Part shown: in pieces, positions 43,894 to 47,986 of the stretch
Layout: every line of letters starts with the position of its first letter
How positions within the stretch are numbered: position 1 is the first letter of the stretch
Made by a program: the position numbers and the translations under genes
The notes under the pieces: model-generated
The model's input: only the letters and a program-made list of their open reading frames with translations
The model's database searches: none
Told to the model about the DNA's origin: nothing
Assembly: GCF_017355915.2 (NCBI RefSeq)
Contig: NZ_JAFEUV020000003.1
Span: forward strand, 628,858 to 692,857
Length of the DNA: 64,000 bases
DNA from: Telluribacter roseus
GTDB taxonomy: Bacteria; Bacteroidota; Bacteroidia; Cytophagales; Spirosomataceae
Direction: 5' to 3'

Positions 43894-46800
43894 ATGAATA
43901 AAATAAAAGGCTGCCATGGGTGGAGTAAAAACTGGATGGCAATCTTTATGGTCCTGTTCTTTCAATCTTACTACTCTACCGCACAAGAACTACGTTGTGG
44001 TACTCCCGAACCAACGGGAGCCGAAGTAGCCCGCCAAAAATCCAGCCTGACCGCCCTGAATGGGGCACGAAAGGGAGCGCGTACCAGTGGAGGTACTCTA
44101 TACGTGCCGATCCGATTTCATGTACTGCGCCAAGGGGATGGGGCTGGAGGAGCCAGTCTGGGGGAGCTCAATCTGGTTCTGTCTGATCTGAATCAGCATT
44201 ATTTACCGGGAGGTATCCAGTACTACATGGCAGGCAGCACTCCTGACTACATCGACAGCGACATCTACTATGACCTGGACATTACGGAGGAAGCGGCGCT
44301 ATGCGCAACTCATGATGTACCCAATGCCATAAACCTGTACCTGCCGGGCACGATTACCAGCGAGGGCTCCCTTATCACCGGCTATGGCTATTATCCCTCC
44401 ACAAGTGCCATGAGCAACCGGCTCTTTGTCCGTAAGGACAGGGCGCTTGATCATAAAACCATAGCGCACGAGCTGGGGCACTACTTTAATCTGCTACATA
44501 CCTTTTATGGCAATGCCAGTACGGCCGTAGAGAACCGCGAGCTGGTCACACGCGGCGAAGGAGCCAACTGCAACCTAGCGGGTGATCTGGTGTGTGATAC
44601 GCCCGCTGATCCGTACGGGCTACCTGGTACCAGTACCACCGGCTGTACCTACACGGGTACGGCTACGGATGCACGGGGAGAGCAGTTTACGCCTCTTCTT
44701 TCTAACATCATGTCGTACTACTACTCGTGTGGGAATAGGTTTACTCCCGGCCAGTACGCCCGTATAAGTGATGGGGTAGTACTCAGACTAAGCCCGCACA
44801 ACCAGTATACGCTGGATTATGCACCGGCGCCGGGCGAGGTAGTAAGTAACCTGATCGCTACCTATACCGAGCAGGGAGTCCGGCTGGGCTTCACCGATAA
44901 CAACTCTAACGAGAGCGGGTACCTGATCGAGCGCGCTACCTCACCCGATGGACCTTTTGTGGCCCTAACCGGGCTGGCGCCGGATGTTACCACCTACCTC
45001 GACACCCAAGTTGATTCCCATCATACCTACTACTACCGGATCAGGGCTTCGAACGGTCTCGCGTATAGCGCTACTGCGTCGGTGCAGGTACAAAAACACT
45101 ACTGCCGTCCCTCGTATACCACCGCCTGCTCTCCTGTGTTCATTGCCGATTTTTTGCTAAGGAATGCCAGCCAGACGCTGATCAGTACGCTAAACTCAGA
45201 CTGTGGCCAGGGCGGTTACAGCGACTATACCAGCGTCGCGAGTCCGGTGAAGGTGGGAGAAAGGTACACCTTTACGGCCAGAGCGGTAGCAGGTGGAGCA
45301 GGAAGCTACTACAAGCAGCACCTGACCATCTGGATTGATTATAACCAAAATGGTACGTTTGATGGGGCTGAGATGGTGTTTCAGTCCGATGAAAGTACCA
45401 TGATGCTGCCTACCGCATCGGCGTCGTTTACAGTACCATCCACAGCCCTGCCGGGTACTACCCGCATGCGGGTACGGTCGCAGTACCATACCTACGGGCC
45501 GGTTAGTGACCCTTGCGGCCAGCTCGCATTCGGAGAAGTAGAGGACTATACCCTTCAGATCATTACGACTCAGCTGCCGACTATCGCTACCACCTCGTTG
45601 AGTACTAACGTGGTATACCCGGGGGAGAGCCTGGAAGTAGCTTTTGAGACTACGGGAGAATTTGGAGAAGGAAATAGATTTACGGTCCAGCTGGGAGGAG
45701 CTAGTGAGGAGGAGTTCTTTGCCATCCCGACTACCGGAGCGGGTAGTCCACTCACTGTAAAGATTCCGGACGAGCTGGTAGGTGGAACAAACAACCGGGT
45801 ACGCGTGGTGGCCAGTCAACCAGCCACTATGGGTACCGTAAGTACGCAGCTACTACAGCTCAGGCAGTTACCGCCAGCGCCGTTGATTTCAGCCGATAAA
45901 ACTACCATTTGTGAGGGAGAGAAGGTGGTGTTAAGTGCTACGGGCTGCGAAGGTACTGTTACCTGGTCGCACGGGGCTACGGGAGCATCGGTAGAGGTAC
46001 TGCCTGTAACACCCTCCTCCTATACCGCTACCTGTACCGTTGAAGGCCGTACAGGCGGCGCCGCCGATAGTATACGCATCACGGTTCAGCCCAGGGTAAA
46101 GGCTACCATCGGCACTGATGCAGACATACGCCTGGGTGAAAGTACTAAGCTAACCGTAAGGCGTACGGCCGGTGCGTCGCCCTGGGGCTTTACCCTTTCG
46201 GATGGTTCTGTGTATGATAATCTGGTGGATTTGGTGGTGACTGTACCGGTTACACCTGCTGCTACCACTACGTATCGTCTGGTACAGGTGCAGAATATGG
46301 CCTGTGGAGTGGGCGAGGGGAGTGGTGAGGCTACGGTTATAGTTAGTAAGAGTCAGGTAGTGGATCTACAAATCAGGGTACTTCTGGAGGGACCGCTGCG
46401 ACGCAATACAAATCAGATGGTGACCAGCCTGAATCAGCGTGGGCTACTGCCGGGACAAGTACCCGTCAATCCTGCGGCGCCACCTACACTGGCCGGACAG
46501 CCGTATAGCGGGAGCCCCTGGAACTACGCAGGCACCGAATCAGTAGACAGCTATCCGGCTGATGTGGTGGATTGGGTATTGGTAAGCCTGCGTACATCCC
46601 CTTCGGCAAAAGACTTAGTACACCGTATGGCCGCTCTGTTGCATTCGGATGGGCACCTGAGTTTCCCGGGTACATTACCCGAGCTGTACAAAGGGGAGGC
46701 GTACTACCTGGTAGTGGAGCATCGCAACCACCTGGGCGTACTGTCGCACCAGGCCGTGCCGGTACAGAATGGTACCATTTTCTATGATTTCAGCCAGCAG

Positions 46801-47067
46801 GATGCCTACACCGCGACCACGCCCCGCTCGGCCGGACAGAAAAAGATTGGCACCTTATTTGCTATGTTTTCGGGCGATGGAAACAAAGGTTTACCTAATC
46901 AGAACTTTGATCTGAACGTAAACGATTTTAGCCTCTGGAAGCTGTCGAATGGCATTTTTGACCGGTATCAGCAGGCCGACTACACTCTGGACGCTCAGGT
47001 GTCGGTAGCAGATAAGGTACTTTGGAGCCAGAATAACGGCAAATTCTCAATGATCGGCAGGCAGTAG
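43894..47067 (+). CDS. Large secreted M43-type metalloprotease with FN3, GEVED, Ig-like and dockerin-like domains
   Basis: Secreted protein of 1057 residues. A signal peptide (about 1-31) precedes an M43/pappalysin-like protease domain with zinc site HELGHYFNLLH (192-202), CDTP near 234 and the Met-turn NIMSYYYSC near 270. The usual HExxHxxGxxH Gly is Asn here. Then follow a fibronectin-III-like domain (about 305-395), a GEVED domain (about 400-553, WIDYNQNGTFDGAE and GEVEDYTLQI), three Ig-like regions (about 553-825) and a C-terminal region whose last 75 residues form two EF-hand-like repeats (FDLNVNDFSLWKL, YTLDAQVSVADKVLW). There is no usual type IX sorting domain. The next gene is co-oriented, 43 bases away, and shares an Ig-like domain. 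Confidence 0.85.
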   Translation: MNKIKGCHGWSKNWMAIFMVLFFQSYYSTAQELRCGTPEPTGAEVARQKSSLTALNGARKGARTSGGTLYVPIRFHVLRQGDGAGGASLGELNLVLSDLNQHYLPGGIQYYMAGSTPDYIDSDIYYDLDITEEAALCATHDVPNAINLYLPGTITSEGSLITGYGYYPSTSAMSNRLFVRKDRALDHKTIAHELGHYFNLLHTFYGNASTAVENRELVTRGEGANCNLAGDLVCDTPADPYGLPGTSTTGCTYTGTATDARGEQFTPLLSNIMSYYYSCGNRFTPGQYARISDGVVLRLSPHNQYTLDYAPAPGEVVSNLIATYTEQGVRLGFTDNNSNESGYLIERATSPDGPFVALTGLAPDVTTYLDTQVDSHHTYYYRIRASNGLAYSATASVQVQKHYCRPSYTTACSPVFIADFLLRNASQTLISTLNSDCGQGGYSDYTSVASPVKVGERYTFTARAVAGGAGSYYKQHLTIWIDYNQNGTFDGAEMVFQSDESTMMLPTASASFTVPSTALPGTTRMRVRSQYHTYGPVSDPCGQLAFGEVEDYTLQIITTQLPTIATTSLSTNVVYPGESLEVAFETTGEFGEGNRFTVQLGGASEEEFFAIPTTGAGSPLTVKIPDELVGGTNNRVRVVASQPATMGTVSTQLLQLRQLPPAPLISADKTTICEGEKVVLSATGCEGTVTWSHGATGASVEVLPVTPSSYTATCTVEGRTGGAADSIRITVQPRVKATIGTDADIRLGESTKLTVRRTAGASPWGFTLSDGSVYDNLVDLVVTVPVTPAATTTYRLVQVQNMACGVGEGSGEATVIVSKSQVVDLQIRVLLEGPLRRNTNQMVTSLNQRGLLPGQVPVNPAAPPTLAGQPYSGSPWNYAGTESVDSYPADVVDWVLVSLRTSPSAKDLVHRMAALLHSDGHLSFPGTLPELYKGEAYYLVVEHRNHLGVLSHQAVPVQNGTIFYDFSQQDAYTATTPRSAGQKKIGTLFAMFSGDGNKGLPNQNFDLNVNDFSLWKLSNGIFDRYQQADYTLDAQVSVADKVLWSQNNGKFSMIGRQ

Positions 47068-47110
47068 TACTATCCTCGCAGCCTGACTGATAGACACGTA
47101 AACGCTACTT

Positions 47111-47986
47111 ATGAAGTACCACTTATACTCCACGTCACCCCTCCGCTACCTGTTACTCCTCATCCTGTGCCTTGCCTACAGCGCCACGACTATGGCTCAG
47201 AGCGGCCGGTTTGATCTGAGGCTGCGGCAACAGTCTTCCGACTGTGCTACACGTAAGGTGGTGTTTGCGCTTGAAGTCCGGGCCTCCGATGCGGATCATA
47301 CCTTTACCCTGGCTTCGTCTAACCTGCGCTTTTCGTACCCAACTGCCGTGCTCAACAATCCGGTACTGAGTTCGCAGGTGAGTTATGCGACTGGTAACTA
47401 CGGCGCCCAGACTTTCGTGAATCAGGATGGCATTGTAACGATCAACATCAACTACCAGGGCGGTGTACATACCGATACGATCAATGTTAACACCACCTGG
47501 CGGACCGTGTCGCAAATTACGTTTGATATACCCCAGGCTTCGACCGGTTGCTACAGCCTTAACTGGAATACTACCGACTTTCCAAGCCTGGAGGTGTACC
47601 AGTTGGATGGCGGCCCCAGCAACGAAGTACCGGCTACGCTGGGAACCGCTAGTAACGCCACAGGCTGCGCTTTTACAGTTCCAACGGCTACACTAACTGG
47701 TACCCAGAGCGTGGATAAAGACGAGGCGGCTATGCTTACCATCGCATATACGGGTACTGCCCCCTGGAAGGTGACCCTCTCCAACGGCAATACCTACACC
47801 AGCAGCAACACCATGCAGATGATCGAGGTATACCCTACGGCTTCCACTTCGTATACGATTACAAAGGTTGAAGATGCCTGCTCGGTAGGTACCTCCAGTG
47901 GCAGTGCGGTGGTATCTATCAAGGACCCCGGCCCCACATGCCGGACACTCTGTGCACCGATCAGCTATCGGATCATCAGGAACTAG
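47111..47986 (+). CDS. Secreted protein with cohesin-like N-domain and Ig-like C-domain
   Basis: Protein of 291 residues with a signal peptide ending near ATTMAQ. Residues about 30-170 form one beta-sandwich-like domain (VVFALEVRASDADHTFTLAS, SNLRFSYPTAVLNNPV, GIVTININYQGG, TTWRTVSQITFDIP) that resembles cohesin-type modules of Bacteroidota. Residues about 190-275 form an Ig-like domain (LTIAYTGTAPWKVTLSNGNTY ... TSYTITKVEDACSVG) clearly similar to one in the preceding protease. The protein ends shortly after, with no recognised sorting signal. The function is unknown; a partner or surface anchor for the upstream protease is an inference from context. Confidence 0.75.
   Translation: MKYHLYSTSPLRYLLLLILCLAYSATTMAQSGRFDLRLRQQSSDCATRKVVFALEVRASDADHTFTLASSNLRFSYPTAVLNNPVLSSQVSYATGNYGAQTFVNQDGIVTININYQGGVHTDTINVNTTWRTVSQITFDIPQASTGCYSLNWNTTDFPSLEVYQLDGGPSNEVPATLGTASNATGCAFTVPTATLTGTQSVDKDEAAMLTIAYTGTAPWKVTLSNGNTYTSSNTMQMIEVYPTASTSYTITKVEDACSVGTSSGSAVVSIKDPGPTCRTLCAPISYRIIRN

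Follow-up and report, generated by a model that had tools for sequence, protein, structure and literature searches.

The window analysed here, a stretch of 64,000 nucleotides from Telluribacter roseus that lies on contig C3 of its 6.3 Mb assembly, encodes a secreted M43 metalloprotease of 1057 residues and, directly after it, a secreted protein of 291 residues (hereafter protein 2). The C-terminal module of the protease and the N-terminal domain of protein 2 are the subject of this work, as they resemble the two halves of a dockerin/cohesin pair. Both genes lie on the same strand with 43 bp between the protease stop and protein 2, and the positions that an earlier note on this DNA had given for the two open reading frames (ORFs), 43894–47067 and 47111–47986, both on the forward strand, were correct. 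The features of the locus are as follows.

43894..47067, forward: gene of the secreted metalloprotease, 1057 residues (ORF; Pfam M43 and GEVED above cut-off)
Protease residues ~1–31: N-terminal signal peptide (by eye)
44452..44775, forward: Peptidase M43 catalytic domain, residues 187–294 (Pfam PF05572, E 3.6e-6, 27.4 bits, cut-off 23)
44467–44499, forward: zinc site HELGHYFNLLH (motif position, in the M43 domain)
44704, forward: Met-turn NIMSY (motif position, in the M43 domain)
45322..45558, forward: GEVED domain, residues 477–555 (Pfam PF20009, E 1e-23)
46360..46857, forward: X-module-like domain ahead of the dockerin, residues 823–988 (AlphaFold2 model of 823–1057; VIA, whole region against type II X-dockerins, Z 9.4–10.3)
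46858..47055, forward: dockerin module with two loop-helix repeats, residues 989–1054 (VIA match of model residues 167–232 to the isolated dockerin 2y3n_B)
46876..46926, forward: calcium-loop-like repeat 1, D995 to D1011, with an insertion (aspartate conservation, 87 rows)
46978..47013, forward: calcium-loop-like repeat 2, D1029 to D1040, a regular 12-residue loop (aspartate conservation, 87 rows)
47111..47986, forward: gene of the secreted partner, protein 2, 291 residues (ORF)
Protein 2 residues ~1–29: signal peptide (by eye)
47195..47590, forward: cohesin-like domain of protein 2, residues 29–160 (family hidden Markov model (HMM), E 2e-44; family fold from the relative L114)
47678..47932, forward: immunoglobulin (Ig)-like domain of protein 2, residues ~190–274 (own-genome matches)
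47939..47983, forward: C-terminal tail CRTLCAPISYRIIRN of protein 2, a possible sorting signal (tails compared by eye)

The conserved module at the end of the protease comprises ~235 residues (823–1057), and its alignment contains 87 rows, including the window. The AlphaFold2 model computed from this alignment reached a predicted local distance difference test score (pLDDT) of 95.0 and a predicted template modelling score (pTM) of 0.92. Type II X-dockerins, or chains containing one, occupied ranks 1–8 of the VIA comparison (Z 9.4–10.3; the next row, Z 4.8), with root-mean-square deviations (rmsd) of 3.5–4.3 across 144–151 residues, and ranks 1–9 of the Foldseek search against the PDB (E 2.2e-4 to 3.6e-3). 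The VIA row 4wi0_B (Z 10.3, rmsd 4.0) aligned model residues 1–233 with 151 of 156 residues, spanning both the X module and the dockerin, while the isolated type II dockerin 2y3n_B matched residues 989–1054 (Z 4.4, 59 of 60 residues, rmsd 3.1). Structure prediction, which had been named earlier as a check on the C-terminus, therefore returned an X-module-dockerin with both EF-hand helices. The dockerin fold proposed in the earlier note stands, but its extent and type were revised: the conserved unit is the ~235-residue module rather than the last ~75 residues, and in place of type I the structural matches listed are type II X-dockerins, with no type I dockerin among them, although absence from such a list excludes nothing.

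The two EF-hand-like repeats that had been recognized at the protease end are present, each with a helix after its loop in the model (residues 1009–1018 and 1038–1047). Loop 2, D1029-x-T1031-x-D1033-x-Q1035-x-S1037-x-x-D1040, has the regular 12 residues, and loop 1 (D995 to D1011) is ~5 residues longer than a regular 12-residue calcium loop. D1011, D1029 and D1040 are invariant in all 87 aligned modules, and D995 is an aspartate in 82 of them. Such invariance shows that the repeats are under constraint, and rules out repeats that arose by chance. A resemblance by chance, in which degenerate repeats serve no function, would fit the lack of any Pfam dockerin or cohesin match in the window proteins, but in the face of the invariant aspartates and the confidently predicted X-dockerin fold we regard it as extremely improbable.

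The fold of the partner domain was predicted in a relative, L114, in which a cohesin shortly precedes an X-dockerin; 419 residues of its 1753-residue ORF were folded. The alignment was built with natural proteins carrying both domains, and its rows were picked solely for correct placement. The AlphaFold2 model of the fragment had a pLDDT of 87.7 and a pTM of 0.68. For the cohesin domain, the top VIA match was 6kgc_A (Z 12.0, rmsd 2.9 Å, 141 of 144 residues), and rows 1–44 were, judged by title, chains of cohesins, cohesin-like proteins, scaffoldins or cellulosome components; Z had fallen to 8.3 at the first row that was clearly unrelated. The X-dockerin half matched 5m0y_B (Z 10.3, 151 of 157 residues). 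The whole chain aligned with 3kcp_A over 292 residues (Z 12.9) with an rmsd of 17, as expected where domains are separately placed, and the top Foldseek row was the scaffoldin chain 4fl4_C (E 1.9e-8). We take 3kcp_A and 4fl4_C to be the CipA fragment with cohesin-X-module-dockerin (Coh-X-Doc) order. The first domain of protein 2 matches the HMM of the cohesin-like family at E 2e-44. The cohesin-like first domain claimed earlier for protein 2 is borne out in that the family folds as a cohesin sandwich in this relative, and by family membership the N-terminal domain of protein 2 is a predicted cohesin.

To follow the module and its partner, 222 genomes from the window's family were screened with the last 228 residues of the protease. 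Matches at E up to 1e-3 were found in 100 of these genomes; the strong ones (E below 1e-50) number 54, in 29 genomes, and the open frames around them are 207 to 4566 residues long. Within 1.5 kb downstream, 35 of the 54 strong modules are followed on the same strand by a cohesin match, with 118–734 bp between the matches, and this arrangement occurs in 28 of the 29 genomes. The cohesin-like N-terminal domain is found in 41 of the 222 genomes, among which are all 29 module genomes (Fisher p 4e-27, uncorrected for kinship; 13 of 13 genera). In the Runella loci, separate paralogous pair types stay together. Across 29 adjacent pairs, the distances among modules and among partners are correlated (Spearman 0.66 for the dockerin part and 0.70 for the X part; none of 2000 permutations reaches these values), although part of the correlation reflects shared descent and linkage could give the same.

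A scan of a genome collection by the module alignment yielded 318 stretches encoding a relative; the 80 best were retained and make up 77 loci. The taxa represented include Rhabdobacter, Arundinibacter, Persicitalea, Larkinella, Arcicella, Runella, Spirosoma, Fibrella and Arsenicibacter, among others, along with metagenome-assembled genomes (MAGs) named Cytophagales or Cytophagia, Chitinophagales, Spirosomataceae and Saprospiraceae. Matches in Spirosoma profusum (G233), Runella defluvii (G234) and Fibrella aquatilis (G236) share their contig numbers and positions with those in the family members G198, G162 and G112, respectively, which suggests that these three genera belong to the window's family. 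The earlier note had expected an unusual surface complex; the pairing is no one-off, being found again elsewhere in the window's family and also among Saprospiraceae.

From these models and gene arrangements, we propose, with a probability of roughly 0.8, that the two genes specify a cohesin/X-dockerin pair of a non-cellulosomal kind, in which the protease is predicted to bind the cohesin of its neighbour and to be tethered through it. The M43 protease would be exported by Sec, and its calcium-loaded X-module-dockerin would dock into the cohesin of protein 2, the product of the next gene. The partner would be kept at the cell surface by a C-terminal signal of its own, which is a type IX secretion system (T9SS) type A or type B domain or a CVP-CTERM domain in relatives and a similar-looking Cys/Pro tail here. 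A protease without its own sorting domain would thus be tethered because its partner is anchored by its tail. At its boldest, this reading would have dockerin proteins that lack a sorting domain cross the outer membrane bound to a T9SS-tagged cohesin.

Several results weigh against this pairing. At the sequence level, the window module shares only 11–17% identity with the known X-dockerins of VIA ranks 1–8, Pfam gives no Cohesin or Dockerin match for the window proteins, and in the family Cohesin exceeds the Pfam cut-off in none of the 222 genomes. Eight Cohesin matches below the cut-off were found in the family; two fall on the cohesin-like domain (G048 and G134), and the other six lie elsewhere. 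Among genomes, 19 of the 54 modules lack a cohesin match in the 1.5 kb that follow them, and twelve genomes have a cohesin domain without a strong module, in one of which (G196) the cohesin domain is a weak match with an internal stop. A profile search of these twelve cohesin-only genomes detected no module in G135, G211 and G221, short dockerin pieces in the seven other genomes of genus g22 (with one longer match besides in G141), and module matches of greater length and distance in G196 and G219. In G219, which belongs to the window's genus, all that is left of the protease gene is a short, broken piece (L040:2374–2680, minus strand), which lies upstream of an intact protein 2 of 79% identity.

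These exceptions bear on an alternative in which both folds are right and the neighbours are not the main partners: protein 2 would be a general dockerin receptor, the protease would dock elsewhere, and the adjacency would reflect joint transfer and expression. The modules without an adjacent cohesin match would fit this, as would the retention of protein 2 in G219, where two other X-dockerin-like matches occur, and the presence of two further X-dockerin-like proteins on contig C4 of the window's own genome. On the other hand, the regular order of module and then cohesin at short distance in all but one of the 29 genomes, together with the cohesion of the paralogous pair types in Runella, makes such a loose association unlikely.

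Other sequence-level leads agree with the folds, although the Pfam matches within the two families are weak. Among 36 members of the cohesin-like domain family, Cohesin (PF00963) was the most frequent Pfam family, with 2 of 36 members and a best E of 4.2e-4, and among 28 modules at E up to 1, Dockerin_1 (PF00404) matched two (best E 0.0033); the window's domains are in neither set. Dockerin_1 ties with a choline-binding repeat by number among the 28 modules and has the better E-value. A stronger lead comes from six genomes (G051, G053, G054, G062, G073 and G079), in which distant homologues of the module lie at the positions of above-cut-off Dockerin_1 matches. Many of the above-cut-off Dockerin_1 matches in the family are half-domain matches in ORFs of ~1000–1200 residues, and these were left out of the dockerin count. 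Searches of PDB chain sequences gave no match with single sequences; with profiles, the cohesin domain gave one unrelated weak match and the module gave the dockerin 5k39, whose E of 0.25 hardly differed from the 0.27 of a GTPase.

In five loci of genus g22 (L060, L062, L063, L096 and L097), the cohesin ORF is directly followed, in the -1 frame, by an intact 44-codon dockerin tail; L059 and L103 (Larkinella soli) are the comparison loci. Among the five g22 genomes, the proportion of synonymous differences (pS) in the dockerin frame is 0.30–0.83 and that of nonsynonymous differences (pN) is 0.00–0.05. Judged by this pattern, the tail looks as if it were still translated, and either a programmed frameshift or deletions that are recent and recurrent could lie behind it.

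The module is found at the extreme C-terminus of its proteins: at most 15 residues follow it in 94 of 96 closed ORFs, and at most 30 in all of them. Nine module-bearing proteins were scanned and comprise three M43 proteases, two CotH proteins, one sulfatase/YHYH protein, one lysyl oxidase-like protein, one with LVIVD repeats and one with no match; a glycoside hydrolase match at E up to 0.001 was found in none of the nine. Within the 77 loci, a cohesin domain and an X-dockerin are combined in one chain in six proteins (L105, L108, L109, L114, L128 and L164), and an 851-residue ORF of G161 has three cohesin-domain matches.

In agreement with the earlier statement that neither window protein shows a normal type IX sorting domain, the NCBIfam scan at E up to 1 found a T9SS sorting model in neither of them, and protein 2 had no NCBIfam match even at E up to 10. 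Ten proteins of the partner set were scanned, and eight pass T9SS domain models, six of them type B (L107 also type A) and two type A; of the other two, a 435-residue protein of the window's own genome passes CVP-CTERM, and protein 2 passes none. Among six partners scanned separately, three relatives' cohesin proteins were above the cut-off of CVP-CTERM (NF058574), a putative sorting domain, whereas the model did not detect protein 2 or the similar-tailed L100 and L113. By eye, a C-x(3,4)-C-x-P tail ends many cohesin-domain proteins, protein 2 included. The recurrent pattern, approximately C-x(3,4)-C-x-P-x(4)-I-I-(K/R/N), is CVP-CTERM-like, but is undetected by the CVP-CTERM model where scanned. 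The protein 2 tail CRTLCAPISYRIIRN occupies the place that T9SS or CVP-CTERM tails take in relatives, and from its sequence this Cys/Pro tail may be a variant sorting signal. Given that nine type B domains in it are above cut-off, the window's own genome very likely has a T9SS.

The placement of the module also invites the reading that it is itself an undescribed, T9SS-like sorting or maturation domain merely resembling an X-dockerin, with protein 2 as an unrelated adhesin. The extreme C-terminus of diverse secreted proteins is the usual place of a sorting domain, and the window pair has none of the known ones. However, the top structural matches of the module are X-dockerins, its loop aspartates are invariant, the partner family folds as a cohesin and most of the scanned partner-set proteins carry T9SS domains themselves, all of which renders a sorting function of the module very unlikely.

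A second X-dockerin-like cluster lies in the same genome, on contig C4 at ~337–343 kb (L204). There, a giant SprB-repeat protein and an 824-residue protein each end in a related double-repeat module, and beside them lies the 435-residue protein, with DUF11 and the CVP-CTERM tail. The 824- and 435-residue proteins have an N-domain in common. By eye it looked cohesin-like; a two-sequence profile comparison was unsupportive (probability 0.3), and no claim is made for it. Two proteins of the genome are above the CVP-CTERM cut-off, the second of which (876 residues) has by eye no such N-domain, and CVP-CTERM is not exclusive to cohesin proteins.

As for the remaining features of the two window genes, the usual M43 zinc motif has a glycine at the position where HELGHYFNLLH has an asparagine. 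Protein 2 matches no Pfam family above cut-off. Its Ig-like domain has five more matches in the own genome, within two ORFs of 1312 and 653 residues. A search of plasmid records gave no match.

To gauge copy numbers, 17 of the 77 loci were picked and their genomes searched for the module (E up to 1e-10) and the cohesin domain (E up to 1e-5); the matches listed are nearly full length, and weaker ones are unlisted. Both domains occur in all 17 genomes; since the loci were chosen for having the module, its presence is uninformative on frequency, while the cohesin counts are unselected. In ten Saprospiraceae MAGs the numbers of modules and cohesin domains were 62/16, 77/19, 70/23, 48/15, 64/19, at least 150/26, 36/17, 37/13, at least 150/15 and 6/2, so that nine of the ten carry from 36 to at least 150 modules and 13–26 cohesin domains. 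The corresponding numbers were 1/1 in Rhabdobacter roseus, 4/2 in Spirosoma profusum, 6/4 in Runella defluvii, 5/3 in Arcicella aurantiaca, 4/3 in Fibrella aquatilis, 3/6 in a Chitinophagales MAG and 2/3 in a Cytophagales MAG. Across this set, every genome that reaches 36 modules has at least 13 cohesin domains, and those with 1–6 modules have 1–6.

Environmental Bacteroidota are probably largely aerobic. It is conceivable, though on balance doubtful, that they run cohesin/X-dockerin networks on the scale of cellulosomes, in which a few cohesins with sorting tails (T9SS type A or B, or CVP-CTERM) would act as common adaptors that export and anchor dozens to more than 100 dockerin-tagged enzymes and adhesins, themselves devoid of a sorting signal. 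In such a network, docking may take place in the periplasm, the cargo riding through the secretion system on its adaptor, and proteins whose two ends are a cohesin and a dockerin may join up as filaments on the surface.

In one Saprospiraceae MAG (L163), four ORFs with an X-dockerin module lie within ~14 kb, and an 84-codon ORF with only a dockerin piece directly follows one of them.

The pair resembles the clostridial type II cohesin/X-dockerin complexes (PDB 2b59, 5m0y, 5g5d, 4wi0 and 3kcp), which likewise have a C-terminal X-module and dockerin with the cohesin on a separate protein, and the single-chain Coh-X-Doc order of L114 is that of the clostridial CipA fragment. It differs from them in its host, a member of the Bacteroidota, and in the length of the module (~235 residues, as compared to ~156). 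The cargo also differs, with M43, CotH and sulfatase among the nine scanned proteins and no glycoside hydrolase match. Clostridial cellulosomes are anchored by surface-layer (S-layer) homology domains, whereas cohesin proteins of relatives here carry T9SS or CVP-CTERM tails.

A cellulosome-like complex has been proposed for Candidatus Stygibacter (Cloacimonadota) from InterProScan annotation of MAGs from an anoxic lake (PMC8542988). As described there, it is similar in its predicted dockerin-bearing peptidases and in a scaffoldin with tandem cohesins and a surface-attachment C-terminal domain; it belongs to another phylum, and section 7 of that paper mentions neither an X module nor paired neighbour genes. 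The same paper names the Planctosome of freshwater Planctomycetes, a cellulosome-like structure proposed for polypeptide degradation, which is from a different phylum and is likened here by description only (PMC8542988). Within the Bacteroidota, a passage on a rumen Bacteroidetes genome reports no cohesins or dockerins and states that this is consistent with other Bacteroidetes (PMC5831590), and a passage on two soil species reports no cellulosomal dockerin or scaffoldin (PMC6247017). Searches of an open-licence library brought up no description of such a cohesin/X-dockerin system in Spirosomataceae or Saprospiraceae.

Despite these published reports of absence, a cohesin/X-dockerin system that stays under the cut-off of Pfam Cohesin is seen repeatedly, both within the window's family and among Saprospiraceae. 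If the pairs bind as predicted, they would offer new orthogonal docking pairs, and the question of how cargo without sorting signals is secreted would become testable. Binding would further explain how many large surface proteins that lack a T9SS domain stay on the cell.

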